64,000 nucleotides of DNA from Pirellula sp. (GTDB lineage: Bacteria > Planctomycetota > Planctomycetia > Pirellulales > Pirellulaceae), in contig JAJTID010000015.1 of assembly GCA_021300155.1 (NCBI GenBank), positions 58,470 through 122,469 of the forward strand, in the 5' to 3' direction. The translations under genes and the position numbers were made by a program. Numbering within the stretch: position 1 is the first letter of the stretch; the number at the start of each line of letters is the position of its first letter. This document shows, piece after piece, positions 1,618-56,522 of the stretch. The notes under the pieces were generated by a model. The model worked only from the letters and a program-made list of their open reading frames with translations. It was not told the DNA's origin and ran no database searches.

Positions 1618-1859
1618 AGAACTATTATTTCTCTCAAAGCTCGGAACTCTTGCGTTTAGCAACAAATTGTAGAACGATTGTCTCTAATCGTTCTTCAATC
1701 CCAACTTTTAATCTGGACGATGCACTGGGCGTTTCGCAGGATATCTCGATCGACAAAGAATAGCAAGCGAGTCAATCTGTTTCAAAAATCGACTTGATGG
1801 CATGATTCGGATTACAATCGTCCTATCATCTTGTCACATTGTCCTAGGAGCCATTCATC

Positions 1860-37885: not shown

Positions 37886-38107
37886 CGAATTCTGTTCGAT
37901 TCAGTGTCGAGGATCGCATGGCTATCGAGAGCTTTGCGTTTCCAGCCTCCTTCTCGAAACCGACTGCTAATTCAGAATGAAACTGAGCATGACTGCATCG
38001 GGCAAGCGTGAAAACGTCGCCTGCCTCATCTTTATTTCATTCACTTTTCTAAAAAAGACACCCCTGCTCTGGCTGTTTTGCGTCTCGGAAAAAAGTAACC
38101 AGTTCAC

Positions 38108-38560
38108 TTATTTTTTGAACTCGATGGTTTCTTGCTGCTTGCCTCCTTTCACTACGATCTTCAAGCCCGATGTTTCCATATCGTAGTATTTCTCCGGTAG
38201 CTTGACCCAACGGTCAGAAACTTTGCTCGTCTCTTTGCTGCTAGCTTGCATGCTCTTGATGACTTCCGGCGGTAGATTCATCCCCGGTGGGATGGCAGGC
38301 ATCGTCGAAGGCTTTGGCTCGAATTCTCGATTATCGATGCAAATCGATACATCGCCAACTGGAATCTCCACTTTGAAAGTTCCCTCTCGGGGTAACTCGT
38401 AAGTAACCGAGTTGTGGGACGGATCGGAATGACGAAAAGTAAGCAACCCACCCGGAATCGGTTTTCCCTCAAACATCGCGACTCCCGAAACCTCACCCAT
38501 GCGAGGGCCACATCCTACGAACGCAACTAATGCACCCAGCACCAATACTTTATTCCACAT
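38108..38560 (-). CDS. Lipoprotein next to DUF1559 gene
   Basis: 150 residues from ATG 38560 (GTG 38566 in the ORF track is an alternative). The leader VLVLGALVAFVGCGPRMGEV has a lipobox Cys. FEGKPIPGGLLTFRH and ELPREGTFKVEIPVGDVSIC match the beta sandwich of small planctomycete lipoproteins related to carboxypeptidase regulatory domains. These are regularly found just downstream of DUF1559 genes, as here (167 bases, same strand). Role in the envelope unknown. Confidence 0.75.
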   Translation of the reverse strand: MWNKVLVLGALVAFVGCGPRMGEVSGVAMFEGKPIPGGLLTFRHSDPSHNSVTYELPREGTFKVEIPVGDVSICIDNREFEPKPSTMPAIPPGMNLPPEVIKSMQASSKETSKVSDRWVKLPEKYYDMETSGLKIVVKGGKQQETIEFKK

Positions 38561-38624
38561 ACTCACACAGCCTTCATCACTATCGAAACGACGGGATTGA
38601 TCAATGATTCATTATGACAATAGA

Positions 38625-38674
38625 CCGGGAAAGATATCCCGGTCCGTAGCTTGAACGGGACATGCGTCCCGTTC
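38625..38674. repeat. Two adjacent GGGA...TCCC hairpin repeats
   Basis: CCGGGAAAGATATCCCGG (38625-38642) and GAACGGGACATGCGTCCCGTTC (38653-38674, 9-base perfect stem). They belong to the same family as the cluster at 15.2 kb. They lie between the DUF1559 gene and the lipoprotein gene and might also end transcription. Confidence 0.65.
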
Positions 38675-38727
38675 TAACGATGAATACACGTTGCAATTCA
38701 ATACGAAAATACTAAACAACAAGAGTG

Positions 38728-39777
38728 CTATTCGACATCGCGATTCACTTCACCACCCGTTGGGGTCAGCAGTTCAAACCAAATAACATTGTCCATGCTG
38801 CCGGAGATGCCGCGGATACTGCCATCCGATAAACCGACTTGCATGCTGATGTGTTGCGTTGAAGCCAACCTTCGATCGCAGTTCCCGCCCTCTCCGGAGC
38901 TAGCAAGCGGATTTCTTGGATTGACTTGAAACTTCGAATTCGGACCGAAGGTAAAGATCACACCATCGCGACCTCGCCCACCACCGAAAACTCCAGATAA
39001 CCGATCTCCTGGGTAGCTATCGGCGGGAACACCTGAGCTTGGGTTTCCACCACCGGCAGCACCGATACGAAACACACCTCGCATCCACCAATTGCCTCCC
39101 GGTCGTCCAGTACCATCGCACCGTGAAAGTTTCTCAGCAAACATAATGGTGTTGGATGTTCCATCGGTAAGCGTGCCAAAGTTAGCTCGTGCATCCCAGC
39201 AGGTCTCCCACGGATTTCCTGCACTACCACAAACGACAGCACGGTTGTTGACCCCACCAAACACTAAAAAGTTACCAGCATAAGAAGCATCACCGGGAGT
39301 CCAATCCAGGCCGTTTCCTAACGTACTATCACTAGGGCATTGATACGTCGACATCCGCGTCTGACGAAGCCATGTTCTACTACCGGTATTCACCGAACCC
39401 CACGTAGGCCATACGAAACCGAGATTAGTAATGTTGGTACCAGGTGCGGCCTGACCAACGGCTGCACCTAAGTCGCAATTGCCCGCCATCTCAAACACAT
39501 TCTTCTGTTCGATAAAGGGCAGCAAGTGAAAGTACAACGGCGCATACCATGCTCCACCGTAATTCCCTGCTTGCGGCGGGAATCGTCGATGGGTGTCATG
39601 CGCATTGTGTGTCGCCAGTGCCTGCTGCTTAAGATTGTTTTGGCACTGCATACGTCTCGCTGCTTCGCGAGCCGCTTGGACTGCAGGCAATAACAACCCA
39701 ACCAAAATACCTATGATTGCAATTACCACCAAAAGCTCCACCAGCGTGAAGCCCCGAACTAGATACTTCTTCCCCAC
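38728..39777 (-). CDS. DUF1559 prepilin-like protein
   Basis: 349 residues. The N terminus [20 protein letters not shown] is a type IV prepilin/pseudopilin signal with cleavage after Gly and Glu at +5, followed by [17 protein letters not shown], the hallmark of the DUF1559 family greatly expanded in planctomycetes. The C terminus holds the family's H...DG motif ([16 protein letters not shown]). Start is GTG 39777 with GGAG 7 bases upstream. These proteins are thought to be surface pseudopilins or part of the unusual planctomycete envelope; their actual role is not established. Confidence 0.95.
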
Positions 39778-40169
39778 AATAAATCTCCAATATGAAACAA
39801 CACATCAAAGTTAGAAAACAAATCGGTTTCGACTCGCGAGCTTAAAATGATATCGGATCAACATCAGCGATCGCAACGGGGCTCAAGGCAACATTATTGC
39901 GTTTATTTACGAAATTCGGCCCCCCCTAGACCAAACGGAGGGTGAATCGAGTCTGCCTCACCTATACAGTTGCCGTCAAGAATCGAAGTACGCAGGGACC
40001 TCTAGTATTCCTAAGACGGCAAACAAAAAGGGCAGGGCAAAAGCCGTTTTATAAAGTGCCGGGCACATTAGCTGCAGGCCCCATTGCGGCAACTTCCCGG
40101 GAAGGTGTCTGCTCGATACCATGGCCCCAAGCAACGGTCATTGATTGAAATTTGTGGCTGTTGCTCTCG
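39778..40169. other. Gene-free stretch between DUF1559 and DHDPS-family genes
   Basis: About 390 bases. A run of eight C (CGGCCCCCCC) lies near 39920; small palindromes GTGCCGGGCAC and CTTCCCGGGAAG stand near 40060 and 40098. The ORF at 39942-40148 has no recognisable domain. Both flanking genes are on the minus strand, so the left part should hold the DUF1559 promoter. Confidence 0.4.
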
Positions 40170-41117
40170 TTAAGCGTTCGCACCCTGCCATGCAGACCAC
40201 CAGGCTCGAAACTGCTGCCATTGCAACTCTAAAAAGGCTTTTTGGCTTTTGGACAGTGCATCACATTCTTGGAGCTGAAGCTCATACTCTGAGTTTCCTT
40301 CAAGCACCATGAGATGCTTGTAATACAAAACGAGATCCGGACCTTCATCAAAGGTTGACAAAACCTGAAGCGCATCCCCCAGCTCCTTAGCCCAAGTTTT
40401 CGCTTGATGGTCGCCCGCCACTGCTTTTTCGCAGAGAGCCACCAAACGAAGAACCTCCTTTGGTAACGCATTTCCGACGCCAGTAATCGCGCCGGCAGCC
40501 CCGCAATAGAGGAAACCGTGCACTACTTGCGTATCCACTCCGACCATCAAGGACAACTCGGGGTCGCCACTTGTGATATGTTCGGCTGCATAGTCTAGCG
40601 AAGCGGCGCCTCCGAACTCTTTGAATCCAACAAGACTGGGGTACTTAGTCCGTAACTCAAAAAACAAATCGGCTTTCGTTTGAAACCCATAATATGGACT
40701 GTTGTAAATGACGGCGGGCAATGATGGGGCGGCAGATAAGATTTTCGAGAAATGGTCGTACTGAGCAGCCTTGGATGTCCCTCGCGAAAGAACACGCGGG
40801 ATCACCATCAACCCAGCCGCACCGACCTTTTCCGCATGCGCCGCGTGAGCGGCCGCAAATGTCGAATTCTGCGCCCCGGTCCCAACCACTACGGGCACCC
40901 CAGCCTTCACAAGCTCGGCAACCCCAGTTTGCCGTTCTGCTTCAGACAACAACGGCCAGTCCCCCATCGAACCGCAGTAGATAACTGCCTTCATTCCTGA
41001 ACTGATGAGATGCTTACCTTTTGCAACGAGCGCATCAAAATCCGGCTTGCGGTTCTTCAAACAGGGGGTCATCAATGCAGGCATACAGCCACGGAAAAAA
41101 TGGTCAGGTCGCGTCAC
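40170..41117 (-). CDS. Dihydrodipicolinate synthase/NAL-family aldolase
   Basis: 315 residues of the DapA/N-acetylneuraminate lyase TIM-barrel family. Schiff-base Lys is K166 in SLVGFKEFGGAAS and the partner Tyr is Y138 in PAVIYNSPYYGF. The substrate loop reads YCGSMGDWPLLSEAER in place of the usual GTTGE, so it is probably not the lysine-pathway enzyme but a lyase for a keto-acid sugar or hydroxyproline-type substrate. Start is GTG 41117 with GGAG 8 bases upstream. A second, more divergent relative is at 52.1 kb. Confidence 0.88.
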   Translation of the reverse strand: MTRPDHFFRGCMPALMTPCLKNRKPDFDALVAKGKHLISSGMKAVIYCGSMGDWPLLSEAERQTGVAELVKAGVPVVVGTGAQNSTFAAAHAAHAEKVGAAGLMVIPRVLSRGTSKAAQYDHFSKILSAAPSLPAVIYNSPYYGFQTKADLFFELRTKYPSLVGFKEFGGAASLDYAAEHITSGDPELSLMVGVDTQVVHGFLYCGAAGAITGVGNALPKEVLRLVALCEKAVAGDHQAKTWAKELGDALQVLSTFDEGPDLVLYYKHLMVLEGNSEYELQLQECDALSKSQKAFLELQWQQFRAWWSAWQGANA

Positions 41118-41511
41118 AATGATTACTCCACAGACTCATAAGGTTAAAAAACAATGAAGATCAGGTTAACGGCTTCACTGAAAACCGACACGAAACACAA
41201 AGGAAGAAAAACCTGCACTAAACCCGACCTTAAGGCAGACAAAAGCCATAGATGCAAAATTTTATTGTTTTTTTGTTTGCCTCAATATCGAACGTCTTCG
41301 CCAGTCATGATGCGCATTTCATCACCACCGATACGCGCAGCGCATAATTATCGATACCACAGCCTATTTGCAGGATCTTCCCCAAGGATCGTAACTCATT
41401 CTGCCGATGCTTGCTGATAGCAAACCGGCCACACCAGGCGCCCTTTGCGAGGTCGTAGCTGCCCCCAGCAATCACTCCCACGTTACAAGCCTGAAACCGA
41501 CGCCTACGAAT
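41118..41511. other. Gene-free stretch upstream of DHDPS-family gene
   Basis: About 390 bases, AT-rich in part (TTTTATTGTTTTTTTG near 41260). No gene is supported. It likely contains the promoter of the minus-strand aldolase gene. Between the next hairpin and rpsG, GACGACGGACCAAA(T/G) occurs twice in tandem (41632-41663). Confidence 0.4.
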
Positions 41512-41543
41512 AAATAACGCGATGCTTGCACATCGCGTTATTT
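41512..41543 (-). terminator. Terminator-like hairpin after rpsL-rpsG
   Basis: A perfect 13-base stem AAATAACGCGATG / CATCGCGTTATTT with a 6-base loop (CTTGCA on the plus strand). On the minus strand it follows rpsG by about 135 bases and ends in TTATTT, fitting an intrinsic terminator for the ribosomal protein operon. Confidence 0.7.
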
Positions 41544-41677
41544 GCGTTTATGAACATGATTTTCTGACTAGACAGTCCGCTGACAAAAAAGCCTTAACCG
41601 CCAGTAATTGCTGGGGAATCCATCCGCTCGGGACGACGGACCAAATGGACGACGGACCAAAGCTACGAGCCAACTGT

Positions 41678-42148
41678 CTACCAAGCGAAGTGGGCGAATG
41701 CCTTGTTAGCATCGGCCATTCGGTGTGTATTTTCTCGCTTGGTGATTGCAGTACCTTCTTTTCGGTAAGCAGCCATCAACTCTTCTGCGAGCTTCAGATG
41801 TGTGGCTCGACCCTTCTTGTCGCGAACAGCACCCAACACCCATCGGAAAGCCAGGCTTTGCTGACGGTTCTTGTTGACTTGCATTGGCACTTGATACGAT
41901 GCACCACCAACTCGCTTCGATCGCACTTCGATGTAAGGCTTTACGTTTTCGATCGCTTGCTCGAAAACTTCGATCGAAGGACGATCCTTGACTTTCTCAG
42001 CGATTTCGTCGAGAGCGGAGTAGAAAACTCCTTGTGCCGTGGATTTCTTGCCGTCGTACATCAAGCAATTGATGAACTTCGATGCGAGCAACGAGTTGTA
42101 TCGTGGGTCAGGTCGAAGTGAAGTTCTGGATGCGGTGATCTTTCCCAT
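41678..42148 (-). CDS. rpsG: 30S ribosomal protein S7
   Basis: 156 residues. Binds the 3' major domain of 16S rRNA and nucleates the head of the small subunit. Recognised by [70 protein letters not shown] and [20 protein letters not shown]. It follows rpsL by 108 bases on the same strand. The usual next genes fusA and tuf are absent; a terminator-like hairpin and then unrelated genes follow. Confidence 0.97.
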
Positions 42149-42256
42149 GTCAGCTATTTCGTCCGATGCTTATCTGTCGTCTATGATTTATTTAGGGAGA
42201 GCGAGGAGATGTGCCTTAACTTGAGGAACAAACCAAGCAACTGAAACTATTCTCAA

Positions 42257-42625
42257 CTATGCCTTTTTCGCACCATAACGGCTGCGAGATTGCTTTCTAC
42301 CATTCACACCCAGCGTATCGCGGCAACCTCGGACCACTTGATAACGAACCCCTGGAAGATCGCGAATACGACCACCACGGATCAGAACAATCGAGTGCTC
42401 CTGAAGGTTATGGCCTTCACCAGGTATGTAAACCGTGACTTCCTTGCTATTGCTCAACCGGACCCGCGTGATCTTACGCAAGGCGGAGTTAGGCTTTTTC
42501 GGAGTCATCGTCCTAACCAACAAACAAACCCCCTGCTTTTGCGGGCATTGCTGCAAAACAGGACTCTTTGTCCGATTCTTTTGGATAACTCGATTTCGAC
42601 GAACCAATTGATTGATGGTTGGCAT
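42257..42625 (-). CDS. rpsL: 30S ribosomal protein S12
   Basis: 122 residues, decoding-centre protein. The N terminus [12 protein letters not shown] and the conserved segments [40 protein letters not shown] and [12 protein letters not shown] are canonical. The Lys of TPKKPNSAL, the site of many streptomycin-resistance changes in other bacteria, is the wild-type residue. The gene starts 91 bases after the end of tRNA-Leu on the same strand, so the tRNA may be processed from a shared transcript. Confidence 0.98.
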
Positions 42626-42716
42626 ACTAAAGCTTTTTCAAGGAAATTCAAACGTCTACCTGATCAGCGACCTTCCGCTCCACTTCGCAACCAAACTCGA
42701 AACAACGAATTTGAAA

Positions 42717-42799
42717 TACCAAAGGTGGGAGTCGAACCCACACGTCCGTGAGGACACAGGATTTTGAGTCCAGCGCGTCTGCCATTCCGCCACTTTGGC
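42717..42799 (-). tRNA. tRNA-Leu (anticodon CAA)
   Basis: 83 bases on the minus strand. Acceptor GCCAAAG/CTTTGGT with a G-U first pair, D-arm GCG...CGC, anticodon loop CTCAAAA giving CAA (reads UUG), long variable arm GTCCTCACGGAC and T-arm GTGGG-TTCGACT-CCCAC. CCA is not encoded. The anticodon stem CTGGA/TCCTG has one U-U mismatch at the second pair. Confidence 0.93.
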
Positions 42800-42976
42800 G
42801 GCGATAGGTGCTGATCCCCTAGCTTCAGAGAAAACGAAAGATCCTCTGGAGTTTTTAGGGACGGAAAGTGTACTAGTCAGGACATAGGATCGGCAAGTCC
42901 AACGCTCCATTTTCTCCTGTTTTTGTCGCCAAGATTTCAATTCCGCAACAAGAATTCCAGCGACGGCTCGCTCAAA

Positions 42977-45018
42977 TTACCAAATTCTCACTCTTTTTTC
43001 GGGTGCGATGTACATTCCTGAGCCAGGTTTCACTTGAAATGCTTCGTAAAAAGCGTCCATGTTAGACACGATTCCGTTGCAACGGTATTGGCTTGGGGAA
43101 TGGGGGTCATTTGCCAATCGCTTCTTGAGCTCGGGCTCCCGATACTTGCGTCGCCACACCTGTGCCCACCCTGCAAAAAACCGTTGTTCGCCGGTCATTC
43201 CATCGATTACTGGAGACGGTTTGCCCCCGAGCGACAATTTGTAGGCAGTAAATGCAACCGCCAGTCCTCCCAAATCTCCTATGTTTTCACCGAGGGTAAA
43301 CTCGCCGTTCACCTTCATGCCTGGCAACGGTTCGTAACTGCTATACTGATTGACGAGCAATTTCGAGCGACTTTGAAACTCGGCTTCGTCGTTCGGCGTC
43401 CACCAATTTCGAAGGTTTCCTTTTCCGTCGAATCTCGCTCCCGAATCGTCGAAACCGTGCTGATCTCGTGACCTATCACAGCCCCGATCCCTCCGTAGTT
43501 GACCGCATCATCTGCTTCGAGATTGAAAAAAGGTGGCTGAAGAATCGCTGCTGGAAAGACAATCTCATTCATCGTCGGATTGTAGTACGCGTTGACCGTC
43601 TGCGGCCCCATGTACCACTCTTCGCGATTTACCGGTTTACCCAGTTTTTGCAAAGCATAATTGTGCTCGAACTCAGCGATCTGACTCACATTCGCGACCA
43701 CATTCTTCGGATCCATAGAAACGGACGAATAGTCTTTCCATTTCTTCGGCTTTCCAATTTTCGGATTAAATGTGGATAGTTTTTGCAGGGCTTCTTTCTT
43801 GGTCCCTTGCCCCATCCACTCAAGTTGATTGATTCGGATCTCAAAGGCCTTCAGCAGATTCTTGATCAATTGATCCATCTTCTCTTCGGCTCGTTGGGTG
43901 TAATACTTCTCGACATAAAGCTGCCCAACAGGCATTCCCAAAAGTCCGTTGCACGCATTCACGGCACGGCGTTCCAACGGCTCTTGCTCCTCAACTCCAC
44001 TGAGGGTCGTTTCGAAAAAGGCAAAGTGCTTGGCCTCTAGCGATTCACTCAAAATGGGGGCATAGTTATTGAGTGCCTGAAACGCCAACGCAGCCTTCAA
44101 TACCTCAATGTCCGTCTTTTCAAAGAGCTTGTTCATCGCCTCAAAAAAGCTTGGCTGGCCAATCACAAGCTCTGCATCCAGCTTGAGCCCCGTTGTGGTT
44201 GCGTAAGCGTTCCAATCGAGCGATGGAATCGACTTCGCGAAATCCGCAGTAGTCATTTTGTTGTACTGCTTGACGGGATCTCGCAACTGTACTTTCGTCC
44301 ATTGGATCTTGGCCATTTCAATCTCAAGATCCACGATTTTGTTGGCAAATTCAGCAGGGGCGGGCCATTGCAACTCCATGAGCATCGACTCTACATACTT
44401 GCGATAGGCCGCGAGTGGCGCTTCGAATTTCGCATCCAAATAGTAATCGCGATCGGGCAAGGTCGTCCCTCCCTGCCCAACATAGATGGCATATTGATCC
44501 GATCGTTTCGCATCGGAATCCACATACACCCCGAAAAGCGCCGATACCCCTTTTCGTCCTAACTCACCCGCCACTCGCATGTAATCGGATTTTGTTTTGA
44601 TCGACTCCACCGTTTTGATCATCGGTAGAACAGGACTGATTCCGAGCTTATTTCTAGTCGCGATGTCGGTATACGATTTGTAGAAATCACCGACTTGGCG
44701 AGCAATGGAGGATGGGTTCGGTGTTTGGCTCGCGCTCTCAATGAGCCGCCGAATTGCATCTTTTGTCTCGATATCGAGAGCCGTGAATGAACCGTAATCG
44801 GACTGATCGTCTGGAATCGGTGTGTTCTTCAACCATACATCGTTGACATAACGAAAAAAATCGTCCGATGGACTGATCTCTTTGCTGATGTTCTGAATGT
44901 CGATCCCAGAAACTTGCCCCCACAAGGGTTTGCAAGGCCCCTGCCATCCGAGGCACCCTGTCAGCGTAAACGTTGCGATAGCCAATCGCAGGGAATATTT
45001 TTTCATGGTTTTGGACAT
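42977..45018 (-). pseudogene. M13-family metallopeptidase broken by a frameshift in its zinc motif
   Basis: Two overlapping-frame ORFs make one M13 (neprilysin/PepO-like) protein of about 680 residues with a lipoprotein-like leader (TFTLTGCLGW). The first ORF runs from 45018 to GAVIGHEIS and then falls out of frame; the second resumes and holds GENIGDLGGLAVAFTAYKLS and the typical C terminus ending in VRIW. At about 43458 (plus strand CCGTGCT, expected CCGTGGCT) one base is missing: restoring it reads GHEIS-H-GFDDSG, the exact HExxH zinc motif. Both halves are otherwise uninterrupted, so the break is recent or a sequence error. The intact enzyme would cut small peptides outside the cytoplasm. 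Confidence 0.88.
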
Positions 45019-45122
45019 AACCTTAAGAGCTACAAGATGGTGAAATGAATCTGCTTCGGTATTCTATCGAAGTGTGAAGTAGTTGCGAGTCGTCTGTAGT
45101 TTCCTCCTAGCTAGGTGTCGTG

Positions 45123-46208
45123 ATGCGATTGATTCTGATGGGCACAGGCCCTTTTGCTGTCCCAAGCTTTCAAGGCTTGAGAGTGCAGGGGCACGATGTA
45201 GCCGCTGTAGTCACTCGACCGGAAGTCCCATCGGCGAACACCAAAAAGCCAACGCCCATAAGCCCCGTACGATCTTGGGCAGAGAGTTGCTCGCTAACGG
45301 TTACGTCCCCCGCTTCCATCAACTCCGTCGAATCGATCGAATGGTTGCGATCGCTGCAAGCCGATTTACTAGTCGTTTGTGATTATGGGCAAATCCTATC
45401 CTCCGAGTGCTTGTCGGTTTCTCGACTGGGAGGAATCAATCTTCACGGTTCATTGCTACCCAGACACCGTGGAGCCGCTCCCGTCCAATGGTCAATTCTT
45501 AGTGGTGACCAAAATGCTGGCGTATCGATCATCCACATGACGCCTGGTTTAGATGCTGGTCCCGTGATCGTTCAAGAGTCGACGCAGATCGCGCCTACCG
45601 AGAATGCATTCCAATTGGAATCTCGACTCAGCACCCTAGGCACGAAAGCAACATTGCATGCCGTTGACCTATTACAGAATTGGAATCCCGCATCAACCGA
45701 ATCGATTGGACTACCACAAGACAAATCGCAAGCGACCAAAGCGCCTCGATTGAGCAAAGCAGACGGTGCTCTGGTCGCCGACAGCCTGTTGAAGTATCTC
45801 GATCGGCAAATTCGTGGGCTATATCCATGGCCTGGCTGCTACGGCAACTTGATCTTCCCCAATGGCCAAGCGTTGCGAGTCATTGTGCACGAAGCTAGCC
45901 CACTGCCGATCGACACAGCACTGCTTCCCGCTTCGGTGAGAGATGCCTGGGATATCGGTAGATTGATTTATGGTGAGAAGGCAAAGCAGCTTCAAAACCA
46001 TCTTGATAGCCAGGAGGATATCTCTCTCGGCTTGATCGCAATTGACGGCTTGTTGCTTTTGAAGAGCTTGCAACCCGCGGGCAAGAAGCAGATGACGGCC
46101 GACGAGTTCCTACGCGGCTATTCCCGCATGGAGTGGATTCGACTAGCACCGCTCCTTGAGCCAAATAGTCTATTGGCAAGAATGAAATTACTGGAGACTG
46201 CGACATGA
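45123..46208 (+). CDS. fmt: Methionyl-tRNA formyltransferase
   Basis: 361 residues from ATG 45123 (GTG 45120 in the ORF track is less likely). Formylates initiator Met-tRNA with 10-formyl-tetrahydrofolate. Clear signs are MGTGPFAVPSFQGLRVQGHD, INLHGSLLPRHRGAAPVQWS with the catalytic Asn-His pair, and SIIHMTPGLDAGPVIVQ. The C-terminal OB-like tRNA-binding part (QIRGLYPWPGCYGNL) is present. Its stop overlaps the next start by ATGA (46205-46208). The deformylase gene def is not alongside. Confidence 0.96.
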   Translation: MRLILMGTGPFAVPSFQGLRVQGHDVAAVVTRPEVPSANTKKPTPISPVRSWAESCSLTVTSPASINSVESIEWLRSLQADLLVVCDYGQILSSECLSVSRLGGINLHGSLLPRHRGAAPVQWSILSGDQNAGVSIIHMTPGLDAGPVIVQESTQIAPTENAFQLESRLSTLGTKATLHAVDLLQNWNPASTESIGLPQDKSQATKAPRLSKADGALVADSLLKYLDRQIRGLYPWPGCYGNLIFPNGQALRVIVHEASPLPIDTALLPASVRDAWDIGRLIYGEKAKQLQNHLDSQEDISLGLIAIDGLLLLKSLQPAGKKQMTADEFLRGYSRMEWIRLAPLLEPNSLLARMKLLETAT

Positions 46209-46996
46209 CGAACCTTCAACGCATCCTCAATACACTAGACGAGCTCGCACCACTTCGCACCGCCGAGTCTTGGGACAACGTGGGTCTGCTCGCTGGAGAT
46301 CGATCACGTGACATCACACGTATCTTAACCTGTTTGACTGTGACAGATGCGACGCTCGATGAAGCGATTGAAAGCGGGGCGGAGCTCATCGTGACTCACC
46401 ATCCGATACCATTCAAACCGGTGCCACGCATTACCGCAGACTCGACGACGGGTAAGCTGTTATTGCGAGCCATCGAACATCGAATTGCAATCTACTCTCC
46501 ACACACCGCATGGGACAATTCCGAGCACGGCATCAATGCGCAATTGGCAAGACAGATTGGATTGCAAAATGTCCGACCATTAGCTCCCTTCTCTGCGGAC
46601 CTGCGTGCACCAATCGACACAGGTACCGGTAGATACGGCATACTTCCCACGGAAACCTCGATCGAGTCGCTGCAGAGCACTCTCACGAAATCGATTCCTT
46701 ATTGCCAGTTTCGCCACACGCATTCTATTCAACGAGTCGTGCAAAAGGTCGGGATCGTCTGCGGAAGCGGGGGCACTTTGCTGAGTCTCGCCATCAAAGC
46801 GGGTTGCGACGCCATGTTGACAGGTGAAGCGACCTATCATCAGTGCCTAGAAGCTGAGGCGAACAACCTTGCTCTTTTGATGGTCGGGCACTTTGCGAGC
46901 GAGTCCTTCGCGATGACGGAACTGGCCGCCCGATTATCAAGATTGCATCCCGATGTCGCATCGAAGGTCTCAAAACATGAACATTCCTTCTTTTAG
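46205..46996 (+). CDS. NIF3/YbgI-family metal-binding protein
   Basis: 263 residues. The family has a dinuclear metal site and is annotated as GTP cyclohydrolase 1 type 2 homologue, though its cell role is unsettled. Seen are NTLDELAPLRTAESWDNVGL, ELIVTHHPIPFKPVPRI with the metal His residues, YSPHTAWDNSEHGIN, and near the C terminus LTGEATYHQ and LLMVGHFASESFAM with the final His and Glu ligands. Start overlaps fmt by four bases, so the two are translationally coupled. Confidence 0.93.
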   Translation: MTNLQRILNTLDELAPLRTAESWDNVGLLAGDRSRDITRILTCLTVTDATLDEAIESGAELIVTHHPIPFKPVPRITADSTTGKLLLRAIEHRIAIYSPHTAWDNSEHGINAQLARQIGLQNVRPLAPFSADLRAPIDTGTGRYGILPTETSIESLQSTLTKSIPYCQFRHTHSIQRVVQKVGIVCGSGGTLLSLAIKAGCDAMLTGEATYHQCLEAEANNLALLMVGHFASESFAMTELAARLSRLHPDVASKVSKHEHSFF

Positions 46997-47140
46997 CTCC
47001 CCGCTGATGACCATCAAAATTCAGTGAAAATTCAATTGGCGTTAGATTTTTGGTCTTTCCGTGTACATATTCTCCAACGAAACTAGGGCTCTCGAAATCC
47101 TTCCTATCTGCCCCTTCTAAAACCTTCATCGAGTCACCCC

Positions 47141-50100
47141 ATGATCATTCCTTGGATTCGACACAGGAAAACTTCCAAAGGTAAATCCCACACTCCCAAG
47201 ATTACACGCCGACGTCGTTTGACCTGTGAATCGCTAGAACAACGCCGAGTTCTCGCGTCGGTCATCAGTGAGGTTTTCGCAACCAACAACGATACAGATC
47301 AGTATTTTGAACTTCGAGGCACACCAGGCTCCACCATCGCGAATGGGACCTACTTTACGGTCGTCGAAGGCTGGGGGGCGGTTCCTGGTGGCCGCGGCTA
47401 TATCCATTCGGTCGTCGATCTTTCAGGGCTGACTTTTGGTAGCAATGGATTTTTGGTGGTTGCGCCATTTAATCACCCCCACCAAATCCATGCGAGTTCG
47501 GGTTCTTTGATTAGCACTTCGACCGGTTTCTCTGGGTTGCCAAGTAATCGATGGAGCGATGCATCGACCATCTCGGATCGCTTTGCCCACGTGTTCATCG
47601 CTGCAAATTTTCTATTGGTACAAACATCAACTAAACCAGTCCCAGGCACGGATATCGATGCTGACGACAATGGCACGATCGACGGAGTCGCTGCAGGTTG
47701 GACCATTATCGATTCTGTGGGACTCCTCGGTCGGACAGCGACTCCTGCGACTTCTTACGGCAAGATCACTTTTGCAGAAGACTCTGCCGTCACGTACCCG
47801 GCGAATACTTCGCTAGTTATTACGGAACGTGGCGGTTACGTTGGCCGCGTCGGAAGCTCGTCAGGTTCATCGCCTGACGACTGGGTACACGGGAATCCAG
47901 TTGATGATGCGTCGGTTGCAGGTGTTGATTTCAAACTAACCTTCGGGACATTAGGAGATCCAACACCTCTCGTTTACGCAGGCAGGTCCATCGACCATGT
48001 GGGAACCTTTAACTTCAACGGCGGTGCTTTAGGCTCCATCGTCATGGATACCAATGGCGACAATGTGTTTGGTCCCGGCGACACTCCACTAGCGGGAGTG
48101 CAAGTCACCGCCGATCTAAATCAAAACGGGATAAGGGATAGCGTCACTGTTGCCGTGCGAGCAGACGACGTTCCGTTGGGAACGGATCTCACCAATCTCT
48201 TTCCAAACGCGACTCTCACGATCGCTGACGAAAACGGCGATAACATAGGCTTCAAGGTTCGTACCGTCACCAATCCGAACAACGCGGGCGACCGAATTTT
48301 TTCACACGAAGGAGTCGGCTTCAATCATACCGACCGGAAGATCAAAGCCGCCTTCTATACGGAAGTAAATGCTGTCTCCGTACTAGCCAATGGAGCGGAG
48401 GGATTAAGGGATTCTTATGGTCGTCTTGAGGTTTATGACAAGAACAATGTACTTCTTCAATTCACACAAACAGGCCCTATGCGACGTGGGAATATCGCAA
48501 CTCTCTCCATCAGTCGTCCAGCGGCAGACATTAAGTACGCTATCTTCTTCACCAATGATGATATGCCAAACTCAAGTCCCTTCGGATCCTTCGACAATCT
48601 GATTTATACTTATCCCGAATTCTCCGCGATTTCTGACGCAAACGGCCAATACTCGATCGAGCAGCTTCCTGTCGGCAACTACACGATTATTCCCACGAAC
48701 ACCGCTGGCAAAGTCCTTTGGAATGGAGCTCAGAGCTACCCACTTCCTGTGCTCAAGACTGAACATCTCTTGAATGCCCATTTTGGATTCCGTGATAATC
48801 AACCGCCTCAATTCTCTGACAGATCATTCAGCGTGCCAGAGAATTCAATTGTCGGCACCATAGCAGGCCAGATCACAGCAATCGACCCCGATGCAGGCCA
48901 GACTGTCGGTTATGAATTCCTCGACAATGCAGGCCCGTTTGCAATTGATCCCATCACGGGCACGATTCGAGTTGCTAATTCCCAACTCTGGGATTTTGAA
49001 ACGACATCACCAATCGTCATTCGCGTACGAGCCTTTGATTCACTCACGCCACCCGCTTCCACCATTCGAAATGTTACGATCTCACCAACGGACGTAAATG
49101 AGTCTCCAATCATCGCGGGCCAGCAATTCACGCTGGCTGAAAACTCTCCGAATGGCACCGTCATCGGAAATGTGGTAGCGACCGACCCAGATCAGGGAGT
49201 AGCAGGTACATTGACGTACACCATCGGTGCCGGCGGTCCAACCAATGTTTTCTCCCTGAATCCAACTACAGGGGCCCTCTCGGTTCTGGATAGTTCTCGA
49301 GTCGACTTCGAACAACAATCCGCTTGGACGTTTCCAGTGGTTGTTCGAGATGGTGGCACACCAACACTCAGCTCTACAGCTTCCATGACGGTTAGAATTA
49401 CGGACGTAAATGAACCGCCGAGGTCGCTATCGTTCACGAATGTTGTACCATTAGCTGAAACGGCGAATGTCGCATCTCCTGTGAATGTGGCTACCATCGG
49501 ATTCGTAGATGACGCGCTCGGGACCAACACGCTATCTCTAGGTGGAGCGGACGCTGCGCTTTTCAGTATTAACAATCGCCAACTTCGATTCCAAAACCCA
49601 CAAGGCCTCGATTTCGAGGCCAAATCTCAATACCGTGTTTTGGTCATGGTGGACGATCCAACCGTCGGTACCACTCCGGACAGTTCTGTCGAATTCACAT
49701 TAACAATCACCGATGTCAACGAGGCGCCAACGGATTTGACGATCACGCCGATGGTACAGTCTCTTCCCGAGTCCGCCAATGTATCCATTCCACTCACTGT
49801 TGCTCAGTTGCAGATTGTTGACGATGCGATCGGCACCAATAGCTTAACCCTCGCTGGACCGGATGCGAGATTCTTCTCCATCTCTGGCGCCAACCTCCAG
49901 TTTTCATCCGCGACTGGATTGGATTTTGAGGCAAAGAGTTCTTATCAAGTGACTGTTCGTTTAGTAGACAACACGATTCCAGGCGCTCAGACGATTTCAA
50001 GAAACTATGCATTGAGCATTTCCGACGTCAATGAACCTCCGACCGCCGTCAGCCTTGAGAGTGTGGTATCCAATATCAATGAGTCGCGTCAACCAGCCAC

Positions 50101-51754
50101 TTCACAGATATTGGCTACGATTCGATTCATCGATGATGCACTCGGAACCAACGAGTTTCGTTTATCGGGTGACGATGCTGCATTGTTTGAAATAGTTGGT
50201 AATCAGCTCGTTCTCAAAGCGGGGTCTATCTTTGATTTTGAGACAAAATCATCCTATGCAGCAAAGATCAGCGTTGTCGATCCAACACTTCAAGTCACCA
50301 ACAATCCATCGGTCGATTATTTCTTGTCGGTCAACAACCGACCCGAAGTACAATCCATCACCGACGGTTCAGGCGGTGCGATTGGTGCCGAAACGGATAG
50401 CATTCGCGTGTTGTGGGATTCACCCGTAATCGTTGGAGCGAACGCTTTCAAGCTACAAAAGCTCGATGTGGTCGGCTTAGTGAATATTCCTCGAATCACC
50501 AATACACTCGTGAATGGCAGAACTATCACGACATTGCAGTTGTCAGGGCCTTTTGTTCGACAGGATGGAAAACTGAATGATGGTCTGTATTTCTTAGCCA
50601 TTGATGGCGCATTGGTGCGTCAATCCAACACGCAACTGCTCGGAGAAGACTACATGTCGCCCGTCATGACCATTCTTCATGCATCGCTTTCCGGTAAGGT
50701 TGAAGTTTCCGGCGCCGCAACGTTTCTCCGCGGAGAGGAGAGGACGATCACGTTGAACTTGACGGGTATCAATCCTTCTCCAACGACAGGCATAGACTAC
50801 TCAATTGACCTAGATGGCAACGGTTCGGCAGACCTGCAACGCTCTGGTGGTTCAACTGTTTCCTTCCCCGCTAGCTACACAACACCAGGTAGCTATACGA
50901 TGCTGATAACTGCGACTCAAAACGGAACGGTCGTGGCTACAGGCTCGCACATCGTCGACGTATCACCAACAACAAATGTTGTTGAGAACTGGCTCAGTTC
51001 GATGGATACGGACCGAGATAGCACCATCAATGCTTTGGATGTCTTGGGATTGGTCAATGCCATCAACCGAACCACTTCAGGGGCTCCGCCGTATCAACGC
51101 GATCTAGATGTGGATCGAGATGGAACGATCACTGCACTTGATGTGTTAGCAGTGGTCAATTATCTGAATGCTGCGGACCCGAAACCGATAGGTGAGTTTT
51201 CACAGCTTGTTATGCAGGAAACAGGGACTGTTCGTGGACTGACAAACGATACGAAGGTAACGGGCCGGATCAATAGTAGCAGTCGCGAATTGTTTGTTTC
51301 TCTTAATGGTCTGGAGCGAAAGAATGCATCTCAATTTGTACAGCCAGACGGAACCTTTACATTGACCGATGCCGCTATCGCTTCGTTGTTTGGCGGTATC
51401 CCGGAAACCGCGAGCGAGTTGTCTCTTTCAACTCGTACAGGAACGAACTTTTCACTGTCTTCAGACAAACGATTCCGAAAGCTAGCTGCATCGACAGCGG
51501 ACTTCCGAGTCCTATCAGCCATGGCCAACAACGGAGAATTCAGAGTTTCATGGACCAGCAACGGGGCAGGTAACCGATACAAAGTATTCGCCTATCCATT
51601 GGGTGGCTCTCCCGAAGTTGTCAAAACAGGACTATCAAGCACCTCTACTACTTTACTTGAATTACCTCGAGGCAACTACGATTTGTTCATCGAGGCACAG
51701 GATGGAGCTGGAAATGTTCGTCGCACGGAAACGGTTGTCATCGCCGTCCCTTAG
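47141..51754 (+). CDS. Large secreted protein with lamin-tail, cadherin-like and dockerin modules
   Basis: 1537 residues. RRRLTCESLEQRRVLASVIS near residue 25-45 is the planctomycete N-terminal export motif. The next 250 residues look like a lamin-tail-type domain (VISEVFATNNDTDQYFELRG). An SdrD/CNA-like stretch (DTNGDNVFGPGDTPLAGVQV) follows. About residues 560-1065 hold five cadherin-like repeats of roughly 100 residues; the first two are classical (VPENSIVGTIAGQITAIDPD; DVNESP), the last three share FVDDALGTNTLSLGG-type wording. Residues about 1285-1345 form a type I dockerin with two calcium loops (DTDRDSTINALDVLGLVNAI and DVDRDGTITALDVLAVVNYL). Probably a cell-surface or secreted adhesion or scaffold protein. 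Confidence 0.9.
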   Translation: MIIPWIRHRKTSKGKSHTPKITRRRRLTCESLEQRRVLASVISEVFATNNDTDQYFELRGTPGSTIANGTYFTVVEGWGAVPGGRGYIHSVVDLSGLTFGSNGFLVVAPFNHPHQIHASSGSLISTSTGFSGLPSNRWSDASTISDRFAHVFIAANFLLVQTSTKPVPGTDIDADDNGTIDGVAAGWTIIDSVGLLGRTATPATSYGKITFAEDSAVTYPANTSLVITERGGYVGRVGSSSGSSPDDWVHGNPVDDASVAGVDFKLTFGTLGDPTPLVYAGRSIDHVGTFNFNGGALGSIVMDTNGDNVFGPGDTPLAGVQVTADLNQNGIRDSVTVAVRADDVPLGTDLTNLFPNATLTIADENGDNIGFKVRTVTNPNNAGDRIFSHEGVGFNHTDRKIKAAFYTEVNAVSVLANGAEGLRDSYGRLEVYDKNNVLLQFTQTGPMRRGNIATLSISRPAADIKYAIFFTNDDMPNSSPFGSFDNLIYTYPEFSAISDANGQYSIEQLPVGNYTIIPTNTAGKVLWNGAQSYPLPVLKTEHLLNAHFGFRDNQPPQFSDRSFSVPENSIVGTIAGQITAIDPDAGQTVGYEFLDNAGPFAIDPITGTIRVANSQLWDFETTSPIVIRVRAFDSLTPPASTIRNVTISPTDVNESPIIAGQQFTLAENSPNGTVIGNVVATDPDQGVAGTLTYTIGAGGPTNVFSLNPTTGALSVLDSSRVDFEQQSAWTFPVVVRDGGTPTLSSTASMTVRITDVNEPPRSLSFTNVVPLAETANVASPVNVATIGFVDDALGTNTLSLGGADAALFSINNRQLRFQNPQGLDFEAKSQYRVLVMVDDPTVGTTPDSSVEFTLTITDVNEAPTDLTITPMVQSLPESANVSIPLTVAQLQIVDDAIGTNSLTLAGPDARFFSISGANLQFSSATGLDFEAKSSYQVTVRLVDNTIPGAQTISRNYALSISDVNEPPTAVSLESVVSNINESRQPATSQILATIRFIDDALGTNEFRLSGDDAALFEIVGNQLVLKAGSIFDFETKSSYAAKISVVDPTLQVTNNPSVDYFLSVNNRPEVQSITDGSGGAIGAETDSIRVLWDSPVIVGANAFKLQKLDVVGLVNIPRITNTLVNGRTITTLQLSGPFVRQDGKLNDGLYFLAIDGALVRQSNTQLLGEDYMSPVMTILHASLSGKVEVSGAATFLRGEERTITLNLTGINPSPTTGIDYSIDLDGNGSADLQRSGGSTVSFPASYTTPGSYTMLITATQNGTVVATGSHIVDVSPTTNVVENWLSSMDTDRDSTINALDVLGLVNAINRTTSGAPPYQRDLDVDRDGTITALDVLAVVNYLNAADPKPIGEFSQLVMQETGTVRGLTNDTKVTGRINSSSRELFVSLNGLERKNASQFVQPDGTFTLTDAAIASLFGGIPETASELSLSTRTGTNFSLSSDKRFRKLAASTADFRVLSAMANNGEFRVSWTSNGAGNRYKVFAYPLGGSPEVVKTGLSSTSTTLLELPRGNYDLFIEAQDGAGNVRRTETVVIAVP

Positions 51755-51819
51755 ATAGATACGCCGCCGGATATGCCACAAGCAGCTTTCGGACGGAAAG
51801 CAACCTGCGCGACTCCACT

Positions 51820-51863
51820 GCCGCTTTCGGCAACTGGACTAGCCGCCTTCGGCAACTGGACTA
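51820..51863. repeat. Perfectly adjacent 22-base tandem repeat
   Basis: GCCGCTTTCGGCAACTGGACTA (51820-51841) is followed directly by GCCGCCTTCGGCAACTGGACTA (51842-51863), one base different. A weaker GCAGCTTTCGGACGG lies 35 bases upstream. It sits in the gene-free 51.8-52.1 kb stretch. Confidence 0.75.
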
Positions 51864-52027
51864 CAAGGGTGACTTTCCCAGCTCCGCATGCGTTCGTGGC
51901 GAAACTCCAGCAACCACTGGCCAGCTTCGACATGCCAAACGCCTGGTTAGCTGAACTGGAACTGCTTGCCCTAACCAGCGTCGCGACCGGAGTTTTGCCC
52001 GAGTCAACTTGAGTTTTACTTTAACGC

Positions 52028-52057
52028 GAGCCGTATACGGACACATACGTACAGTTC
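52028..52057 (+). mobile_element. Possible group II intron domain V relic
   Basis: GAGCCGTATACGGACACATACGTACAGTTC resembles the catalytic domain V of bacterial group II introns (GAGCCGTATGCG...CGCACGTACGGTTC) and is followed by TGTGAGAGGGCTGAAGG, wording often seen at intron 3' ends. The lower stem pairs GAGCCGT with ACAGTTC with one C-A mismatch; the AGC triad is kept; it is 4 bases shorter than the usual 34. No reverse transcriptase ORF is upstream, so only a relic is suggested. Confidence 0.4.
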
Positions 52058-52123
52058 TGTGAGAGGGCTGAAGGAATCATTACGCCGATTCATCCTGCTC
52101 GACGTTCCCGTATGAGGTGACTG

Positions 52124-53254
52124 CTAGGAATCGAATCGAAATGGAATTCCGAGGATTTCAGCGACCCGCTTCGGTCGACGAAGCGATTCTTGCATTCGAA
52201 TGGCTTCGTTACTGCCTCGTAAGTCTGTGCATTCGGGGTGTGATTCTGGTGATGCGATGATCCCCAATTCGTGCAACACATGCGCCGTACTATGCTTGTA
52301 AGCTGCGGCGCTCATCGATGCATCCAAGCGAAAAACTTGGTCTTCTAAAGATTGGAACGCTTCAAAGACTTTATAAACCCGTGTATCAAATGCTCCTGAA
52401 CCTGTCGTGAATTTCTTACGGGGCGCATCATCAGTTAGCCACATATCCTTGGCGGCTGCAATGAGGGGGGCACCACTCACGGCCGCACCGATCAACAATG
52501 GCAATCCAAGCTTGATCGCGGTCGCAATTCCAAAATCGTCTCCGCTATGAGGCGCGAAGTCCAATTGAAGATCGCGGCACATCGCAGCCCAATATAGAAA
52601 GTGCGGTTCGTCCAGCGTACTAATCTTGCCGCCGATGAACTTTGGATGCTGGGCCAGTTGCCAAAGCAACCACGGCTCAAAAGGCTTCGCCCAAGGAACG
52701 AAAGCGGGTTCAAGAGCATGAACGATTCCTGGGCGAATAAGCCAGTCGGCAATTGCAAAGTATGCGTCCCGTTTTGGTTCGGGGGCCAGCGCGCTCAACC
52801 ATTTCGAAGTCATCAGCATGACCTCGCAGTTATCATATTGCTGAACGATGTCGAGAAGTGGCCGATATCGATCCGGTTGGAATGAGCTATCTTTTTCCGC
52901 ACCACGAGCGGTAACACCAGCGATAAACTTTGCACCCGGAAAAGCGTTTCGAAACCGCCGGAGAACCTCGCTGTAGAGCGCATTATCCAAATTAAAAATA
53001 TAGCCAGTGTCCGCGTTCAGCACGACCACCAGTTCGACCCCATAGTAATCAGCAGCTGATTGCATCCAAGCGATGCTGGAGACAAATCCTTCCCAGTCTG
53101 GTTGCTTATTTCGAAACGGAAGAAGCGCCGCCGCGCAAAGTCGGGCCTTTGTGTGGTGATCGATCAACGACTCCTCGCTAGTCCAAGCCCACTTGGTATC
53201 GAGCCAGTTTGTAGAAGGTGTCAGTTCCTGGGGGGTTGCAATCAACGGTTTCAT
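52124..53254 (-). CDS. DHDPS-like aldolase, divergent
   Basis: 376 residues, longer than the usual 300. The core looks like the dihydrodipicolinate synthase/NAL TIM barrel: CAAALLPFRNKQPDWEGFVS at the start, FIAGVTARGAEKD in the position of the GTTGE loop region, and HPKFIGGKISTLDEPHFLYW with a probable Schiff-base Lys in GGK. The C-terminal 100 residues (AFDTRVYKVFEAFQSLEDQV) are helical as in the family. The substrate loops differ, so it is unlikely to be DapA itself. A single gene on its strand, about 190 bases from the next. Confidence 0.72.
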   Translation of the reverse strand: MKPLIATPQELTPSTNWLDTKWAWTSEESLIDHHTKARLCAAALLPFRNKQPDWEGFVSSIAWMQSAADYYGVELVVVLNADTGYIFNLDNALYSEVLRRFRNAFPGAKFIAGVTARGAEKDSSFQPDRYRPLLDIVQQYDNCEVMLMTSKWLSALAPEPKRDAYFAIADWLIRPGIVHALEPAFVPWAKPFEPWLLWQLAQHPKFIGGKISTLDEPHFLYWAAMCRDLQLDFAPHSGDDFGIATAIKLGLPLLIGAAVSGAPLIAAAKDMWLTDDAPRKKFTTGSGAFDTRVYKVFEAFQSLEDQVFRLDASMSAAAYKHSTAHVLHELGIIASPESHPECTDLRGSNEAIRMQESLRRPKRVAEILGIPFRFDS

Positions 53255-53444
53255 GAGTGTCCTGTACGAATATTAGTCGAAACCGAATTGTAATCCATCC
53301 CTCGCGAATGAGGGACAACACTCACAAGAAACAGTCATCAGGTCCTGCGCTGGGCTGCCTTTACGATAAGATTGTTGATGACTCGTTTGACACCAGAAAT
53401 CGCCGCGCAGACGGATGACGCTGCGATTTTTTGATGTCATGCAT

Positions 53445-54680
53445 TTACTTTTTCGTTCCAAACTTGGAATTAAACACATCTGGATCAAAGGGGTCTTGCC
53501 CTATCGCCTTTTTTTGCCGTTCTAGCTTGTCAATGGCAGACTCCAGCAGAGCAATGTCACCAGCGGAGATGACGCCAGCACCAGGCGGATTGCTTTGTGA
53601 GTTGTCGGCAGGCTTTGAGAGTTTGGCGTTGCGGTCTTGTTCTGGTAATCTCTGCGTTTCACGGATCCAATCCATTCTGCTTTTGGGGTTTGTCGAGGGA
53701 GTTGCAATGGATGGTTGAACATCGGTCGCGATAGCTTCAACGACAGTTTTGGAGTTCGTGGACACAATTTCTCCCTCAACTGCGTTGGCAAACTCCAAGG
53801 ACTTGATCCATTGAGCTATACGCTCGATGTGAGCTCGATCATCTTCTCGCAATGGATTGAAGCGTGGAGATTTTTGAATTCCATGCGCATTGGTTGCGTA
53901 AGCAATGAGTTGGCTGCTACTCGGATCTTTCGGATTAATGTATCGCAGTACATTCTCCAAGTTTTGGTTTGCAATCGTTGACGCTTGATCGCCTGCAGCT
54001 TTGTGGATGTGAAAACTCGAGTTGCCTGGTAAACCGTGACAACCCGCTTGGCCGCATCCATTGATCAAGATCGGAGCAACGGTAGTATGAAAAGCTTTCT
54101 TGACATATCCAGGAATCGCAAGATGCTGGACGCCTGGTTTCGAGACATTTTCGACCGAGCTGGCGAGCGTTACTCCCGTAGGATTTGGCGTTGACTCTTG
54201 GATGGCAACGGCACTTCTGACTTCGTTCTTTGCAATGGAAGAACGCACCTCTTCGCTGTTGAGAAGAGCCGACTTGAGTTGCTGTTCGAGTTGTCTAAAT
54301 TTTGCAGACGACTCAACATTCTTTGCGAGTTCACCGTAATGATAAACCGCTTGTTCGAGGAGTTGTTGTTGCAGGCACCATTGGGTTAGATGCCAATGTT
54401 CGCCCGTTCCCCAAACGCGTATCGACTTGGCCTGAGCATGGTACAGTTCGAGTTTTGAGGCAGCGATATGTCCGACCTGTTTCGAATCGACTTGAATCGT
54501 TGCCCCTTGTCCGAGTCGAATTTCCATTTTCTCGCCGACAGGCCGAACGACACCATGAAACACACTGCCGTTGTTCATCAACACGAAGGAACGATTGTCC
54601 GGTTCAGACCCACGAAGTGGACTTAACGACGCGAAACAAACAGCGGAAACGCCAAGTAGTAACCCGACAAACTTTTGCAT
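53445..54680 (-). CDS. Secreted protein with C-x4-C-H heme-type motif
   Basis: 411 residues from ATG 54680 (ORF track six codons longer). Signal peptide MQKFVGLLLGVSAVCFASLS. Residues 30-110 look like a small beta domain (NNGSVFHGVVRPVGEKMEIR). Near residue 215, VAPILINGCGQAGCHGLPGN carries C-G-Q-A-G-C-H, a four-residue spacing instead of the standard two, followed by NLENVLRYINPKDPSSSQLI and HIERIAQWIKSLEF as in planctomycete cytochrome-like domains. The C terminus is Ser/Asn/Pro-rich and helical. Downstream of ffh by 80 bases on the same strand, with a small hairpin between. Heme binding is inferred. Confidence 0.7.
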   Translation of the reverse strand: MQKFVGLLLGVSAVCFASLSPLRGSEPDNRSFVLMNNGSVFHGVVRPVGEKMEIRLGQGATIQVDSKQVGHIAASKLELYHAQAKSIRVWGTGEHWHLTQWCLQQQLLEQAVYHYGELAKNVESSAKFRQLEQQLKSALLNSEEVRSSIAKNEVRSAVAIQESTPNPTGVTLASSVENVSKPGVQHLAIPGYVKKAFHTTVAPILINGCGQAGCHGLPGNSSFHIHKAAGDQASTIANQNLENVLRYINPKDPSSSQLIAYATNAHGIQKSPRFNPLREDDRAHIERIAQWIKSLEFANAVEGEIVSTNSKTVVEAIATDVQPSIATPSTNPKSRMDWIRETQRLPEQDRNAKLSKPADNSQSNPPGAGVISAGDIALLESAIDKLERQKKAIGQDPFDPDVFNSKFGTKK

Positions 54681-54739
54681 TTTTAAGTCCCTGAACAAAC
54701 CGCTGGCCTAGAGTGCTCGTGGGACAATAGCAAATCAAT

Positions 54740-54757
54740 GAGGTTCGAAGCAACCTC
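54740..54757 (-). terminator. Small hairpin after ffh
   Basis: GAGGTT-CGAAGC-AACCTC, a 6-base stem just downstream of the ffh stop. No U-run follows on the minus strand, so termination is uncertain; it may instead stabilise the ffh message end. Confidence 0.3.
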
Positions 54758-54759
54758 GG

Positions 54760-56232
54760 CTAGTTGCGCTTCTTTTTGCGAAGCGCGCGATCGCGTTCCC
54801 GTTGTAGCTTCTCGCGTTCTTTGGGAGTTAGTCGTTTTCCTGTGCTCCCTTTAAGCTTGACACCTTCGGTGGGGTTGAACGGATTTCTGGACATCATTCC
54901 TTGCATTTGACCGAGCATTTTCATTTTGTCAGCCATCGAGCCTGATGTTGCCATTTGTAGCATGGGACCGATCATTTCGAACTGCTTGATCAAGTCGCTG
55001 ATTTGACTCGGTTGGCATCCGCAACCTTTTGCGATTCGATTCCGTCTGGCAGAGTCAATCACTTTAGGGTTTTTTCTTTCTGACGGCGTCATCGAGTCGA
55101 CGATACCGGTCAGCCGACGCATTTCTTTCTCGCTATCGGCGTTTGCCATCATTTTGGAAAACTCTCCCATCCCAGGCATGAGCGATACCATTTTCGTCAT
55201 CAGCCCAGGTTTGCGCAGTTTTTGCATCATATCGCGGAAGTCGCCGAGGCTGAAAACGCCCTTCGACATTCGCTCTTCCATGGCGAGACGTTCTTTTTCG
55301 TCTATAAGCTTATGCGCCTCACGGGCGACTTCCAAAATGTCACCCATTTCCAATATACGACTCGCCATCCCTTCGGGCCGGAAAGGCTCCAATGCATCGA
55401 GATGCTCCCCGGTTCCGATGAATTTGATGGGAACCTGCGTTACCGCTTTAACGCTCAGCAGGGCCCCGCCGCGTGCATCTCCATCGAGCTTTGTCATGAT
55501 GATGCCATCGAGGGAAAGCGCTTCGTTGAAGGCCTTCGCGCTGTTCACTGCGTCTTGGCCGGTCATGCCGTCAACAACCAAGTAGACTTGTTGAGGCTGG
55601 ACCGCTTTGTCGATACGTTTGAGCTGTTCCATCAACTCTAGGTCGATCGCTAGCCGGCCGGCAGTATCGAGAATGACAATATCAGCTCCAGCGGCTCTGG
55701 CTGCTGCAATACCTTCTTGGCAAACGGCTACTGGATCTTGAGCGCCCTCTTTGCTAAACACTCCGACGCCTAGTTGGCGCCCGAGGACGTGCAACTGTTC
55801 GATAGCGGCAGGACGTTGCAAGTCCGCAGCAATCAAAAAAGGCTTAAAGCCCTGCTCCTTTATCAGTTGAGATAATTTTCCGCAGGTCGTGGTTTTTCCA
55901 GCCCCTTGGAGGCCGCACATCATGATGCTGGAAGCCGCACCCCTCTTCAGAGGTATTGAGTTGTCGACTGGCCCAAGAAGATCGACTAATTGTTCGTAGA
56001 CAATTTTGACTAATTCTTCGTTTGGTCGAAGAGAGTGAATAACGCGGCGACCGATCGCTGCTTCGCTGACATCGGCCATGAATTTGCGGACAACATCGAC
56101 GTTAACATCGGCTTCGACCATGGATTTTTCCACCATGGCGAGGCCTTCTCGCATATTCGATTCGGTGAGTTTGCCTTTTCCCCGGAGTACTTGAAACGCG
56201 GTTTGGAGGCCTTCTTGGAGTGACTGAAACAT
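54760..56232 (-). CDS. ffh: Signal recognition particle protein Ffh
   Basis: 490 residues. GTPase that carries signal-peptide-bearing ribosomes to the membrane. N domain MFQSLQEGLQTAFQVLRGKG; G domain P-loop MCGLQGAGKTTTCGKLSQLI, DTAGRLAIDLELMEQLKRID and TKLDGDARGGALLSVKAVTQ; M domain with PKVIDSARRNRIAKGCGCQP and Met-rich KMKMLGQMQGMM, and a basic tail (ERDRALRKKKRN). Normal length. The 4.5S RNA was looked for in the flanks and not seen. Divergent from the giant secreted protein gene with 290 bases between starts. Confidence 0.97.
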   Translation of the reverse strand: MFQSLQEGLQTAFQVLRGKGKLTESNMREGLAMVEKSMVEADVNVDVVRKFMADVSEAAIGRRVIHSLRPNEELVKIVYEQLVDLLGPVDNSIPLKRGAASSIMMCGLQGAGKTTTCGKLSQLIKEQGFKPFLIAADLQRPAAIEQLHVLGRQLGVGVFSKEGAQDPVAVCQEGIAAARAAGADIVILDTAGRLAIDLELMEQLKRIDKAVQPQQVYLVVDGMTGQDAVNSAKAFNEALSLDGIIMTKLDGDARGGALLSVKAVTQVPIKFIGTGEHLDALEPFRPEGMASRILEMGDILEVAREAHKLIDEKERLAMEERMSKGVFSLGDFRDMMQKLRKPGLMTKMVSLMPGMGEFSKMMANADSEKEMRRLTGIVDSMTPSERKNPKVIDSARRNRIAKGCGCQPSQISDLIKQFEMIGPMLQMATSGSMADKMKMLGQMQGMMSRNPFNPTEGVKLKGSTGKRLTPKEREKLQRERDRALRKKKRN

Positions 56233-56522
56233 CCGTAATCCGTAAGGTTTTTTAAATGAGGTCGAACAGGAGACTTTTAACGATTGGAACTTTTGAAGGA
56301 ATTAGATCCTCCAAGAGCCGCATTGTATCGTGTCATTTCTAACGATTATGCAACTTCTTGGGTGCAAGTAAAGGAATTAAAACGACTTGCAATCGAGGAA
56401 GTAGCAATCAACTGGGAGTGATTCGTTGCAATGCGACCGGGTCGAATTAGACTCGGAATTGCGGCCCGTTATGGGTTCCTATTCGATATTGCCCTGTTTT
56501 TGGCTCCTCAAGAGGTTCGTCG

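Follow-up and report, generated by a model that had tools for sequence, protein, structure and literature searches.

The locus raises the question of whether a conserved zinc peptidase gene has recently been inactivated by a single missing base in its zinc-binding motif, whether the break acts as a regulated switch, or whether it was introduced at the level of the base calls. The window (the whole stretch of DNA analysed, 64,000 nucleotides) belongs to a draft assembly of 6.46 Mb in 260 contigs, the nearest named relatives being Pirellula MAGs. A single M13 (PepO/neprilysin-like) peptidase gene runs from 45018 to 42977 on the minus strand and is split by one missing base, approximately 20.5 kb away from the contig end (Table 1).

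Table 1. Features of the M13 peptidase locus (window coordinates)
Feature	Position	Strand	Remarks
tRNA-Leu (caa)	42717..42799	-	downstream of the M13 gene
Continuation of the M13 gene, different frame	42977..43459	-	catalytic domain positions ~45-205
Initial frame of the interrupted M13 gene	43315..45018	-	PF05649 and catalytic domain positions 1-45, then ~48 out-of-frame residues
HExxH codons with the single missing base	43456..43470	-	gap after 43459 (43459/43460)
Methionyl-tRNA formyltransferase-type gene (fmt)	45120..46208	+	divergent, intact; arrangement common to three relatives

Read from 45018, the first frame shows a signal/lipobox-like motif (LTGC) at its N-terminus, as judged from the sequence. 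It continues to ...AVIGHEIS, with the HE codons at 43470-43465, and then passes through approximately 48 out-of-frame codons before terminating at 43317-43315. Homology is taken up again with ...GFDDSGARFDG... in the second frame, which retains GENxxD and ends in the canonical C-terminus ...EKRVRIW at 42977. The HExxH zinc motif is therefore not contained in one frame, which is lost after HEIS; the second His disappears at the junction, and ENxxD with the third zinc ligand (GENIGD) is found in the second frame only. A product made from the sequence as written would be without the second His of the zinc site and all that follows it, the Glu of ENxxD included, and is thus predicted to be inactive.

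The N-terminal M13 domain (PF05649) was matched over its complete profile (1-381 of 381) with 385.9 bits, above the cut-off. The whole length of PF01431 was covered as well, positions 1-45 by the first piece and 45-205 by the second, and the pieces abut in differing frames. The NCBIfam PepO model was also distributed over both pieces (5-479 and 481-627), with a score far under the equivalog cut-off, and the best solved relatives were bacterial M13 enzymes, e.g. 9eyg, PepO and Zmp1. The locus resembles peptidase family M13 (PF05649 plus PF01431; PepO, Zmp1, neprilysin) in that its N-terminal and catalytic domains are both complete and correctly ordered, but differs from it in the interruption of the frame within HExxH, in this assembly only. 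One base is the sole loss from the gene, and the two pieces jointly span the Pfam M13 domain without loss. The preliminary description had placed a one-base deletion inside the HExxH of a minus-strand M13 peptidase, which the frames, the Pfam matches and the alignment with the nearest relative confirmed; the end of the second frame agrees with its statement that the rest of the protein continues to the canonical C-terminus.

In the nearest relative the missing base is part of a two-base run, and the site is not a homopolymer, hence not the usual kind of place for an error; the distance of about 20.5 kb from the contig end likewise counts against one. HExxH amounts to 15 of the approximately 2043 bases of the gene, and a random single-base indel would fall there in approximately 0.7% of cases. 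This coincidence is required by no mechanism, because the catalytic domain would be inactivated just as well by a break at almost any other point in it.

The comparison with related genomes, which had been proposed as a check, was run on genus and family genomes. An M13 match was obtained in 26 of 27 genus genomes searched, the broken one counted; the homologue was kept in 25 of the 26 others and was broken at the motif in none. HExxH and ENxxD stood in a single frame in all 25 other same-genus genomes carrying the gene. The M13 domain was unbroken in every other Pirellulaceae genome having one (63/63). No other broken copy was seen in the wider genome set, in which the one full-length locus outside the motif search pattern (L095) consisted of one intact frame of 706 aa. 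The check therefore returned intact genes throughout and the broken allele in none of these genomes. Retention in the genus and the failure to find a shared broken allele argue against a real knock-out of the gene. On the other hand, 55 of the 119 family genomes gave no M13 match; it is absent from nearly half of the sampled family, so a real loss is tolerable.

These comparisons also bear on a phase-variable on/off site, one of the three options initially put forward. All that favours it is the switching of the frame by a change of one base. The hypermutable simple-sequence repeat that marks the switch site of a phase-variable contingency gene was not found: the site has no simple-sequence tract, runs of four come no closer to it than 26 bases on the upstream side and 35 bases on the downstream side, and there are neither tandem repeats within 200 bases nor repeats across the site. 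As the relatives are in frame throughout and none carries the broken allele, phase variation is considered highly improbable. The other two options of the preliminary description, namely that the gene was knocked out recently or that the sequence is wrong by one base, survived.

Both M13 pieces are still conserved, as they would be if the full enzyme were made by programmed ribosomal frameshifting or if the peptidase were made in two pieces. A programmed -1 frameshift was rejected, since no slippery heptamer (X XXY YYZ) was found in the overlap of approximately 190 bases between the two frames. A restarted C-terminal piece was rejected too, since the downstream frame has no start codon ahead of the second zinc His; its earliest possible start is a TTG at 43360, beyond that residue. 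With one continuous frame in the relatives, either arrangement would be most surprising. A literature search yielded nothing specific. Functional backup by a paralogue was likewise discarded, as the assembly contains one M13 gene and one DNA copy of it was found.

The age of the break was assessed against the nearest relative (G018, 92.5% DNA identity), in which the gene alignment showed one one-base gap in 2051 columns. For the part of the gene before the break, dN/dS was 0.056, and for the part after the break 0.036. When the amino-acid changes were polarised with two outgroups, 4 derived residues before the break were assigned to the lineage of the window and 9 to that of G018, one of the 4 being a mere start-codon difference; after the break, the numbers were 0 and 2. 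This polarised comparison gave no excess of amino-acid changes in the gene on the lineage of the window, and selection was not relaxed on either side of the break, which speaks against a knock-out. In the 10 kb of synteny around the gene, this gap was the sole frame-breaking one within a coding region; the others were intergenic, at the end of a gene, or totalled three bases. The alignment and the dN/dS values thus bore out the earlier statement that no other damage is visible.

From the dN/dS values and the polarised changes it follows that selection on the M13 reading frame remained normal practically up to now, as would be expected both from an error and, to the same degree, from a very recent event. 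The locus is like a single-base frameshift pseudogene or an assembly artefact in its one indel and in the homologous sequence carrying on in another frame. In contrast to an old pseudogene, it has no accumulated substitutions or further indels; the relaxed selection or further disabling changes of an established pseudogene were not found (dN/dS 0.036-0.056, no other indels).

The quality of the assembly was evaluated through three large families. No other single-base frame break was detected among 164 conserved-domain matches (68 sulfatase, 57 ABC ATPase and 39 kinase). Where sulfatase matches were partial or truncated, they either lay at the end of a contig or had their parts in one and the same open frame; some of the kinase matches were partial inside single long frames, and the other window genes scanned gave full-length or near-full-length domain matches wherever any match was obtained. 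The assembly is therefore not noisy and such errors are not frequent in it, so that a noisy long-read-style assembly was rejected as the cause. The survey is compatible with isolated errors rarer than about one per 40 kb, a bound that is our own estimate from zero events in approximately 110 kb of surveyed domain sequence. One ABC match was partial: a GntR-linked ABC transporter ATPase on contig C252 (L122, local 1757-2643, minus strand; G000:C252:14858-15744) looks broken. It shows a frame jump and apparently a missing stretch before the signature motif, and is probably affected by a larger deletion and not by a one-base indel.

Taken as a whole, the locus is a commonplace gene for a secreted M13 zinc peptidase, present once in a Pirellula-type planctomycete and intact in its recent ancestry; the isolated deletion of one base that interrupts it is confined, among the genomes examined, to this assembly. 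Slightly favoured over an established loss, at barely better than an even chance, is an error in the consensus base or a variant unfixed in the population, because the gene is the only M13 copy and is under strong purifying selection. Single copy, retention across the genus and strong constraint were weighed toward an error, and the non-homopolymer site, the clean assembly and the dispensability of M13 in the family against it, these weights being a judgement and not a measurement. The same three latter points favour a real, very recent, strain-specific knock-out of the sole M13 peptidase, too recent for further damage, which could well have occurred, with a chance not far under one half. That such a loss, through a one-base deletion in the zinc motif, has become fixed in the strain before further decay is a reasonable possibility of somewhat less than even weight.

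Whether it arose as a minor fault of the assembly or as a single mutation of very recent date, the frameshift is of an ordinary kind, and its importance is small, concerning the annotation of one gene. Until there is support from reads, we suggest annotating the gene as an M13 peptidase with a frameshift, and neither as a truncated enzyme nor as a regulated switch. Should the deletion be genuine, it would add one instance of a conserved secreted peptidase that was dispensable and lost only recently.

The gene is flanked by rpsG-rpsL-tRNA-Leu and by the divergent fmt. G018 retains all protein-coding neighbours, and the order M13-fmt-NIF3 is kept in two further relatives (G001 and G010). DNA synteny with contig C2 of G018 is limited to window positions 38080-51760, positions 1-38079 and 51761-64000 having no match there. 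A cadherin/dockerin-like surface protein of 1537 aa (47141-51754, plus strand) is 90% conserved in G018; in the same neighbourhood, G001 and G010 show only a weak C-terminal match to it. Further along the plus strand (56523-63998), a frame that stays open for at least 2492 codons extends past the right edge of the window and corresponds to a very large surface-type protein.
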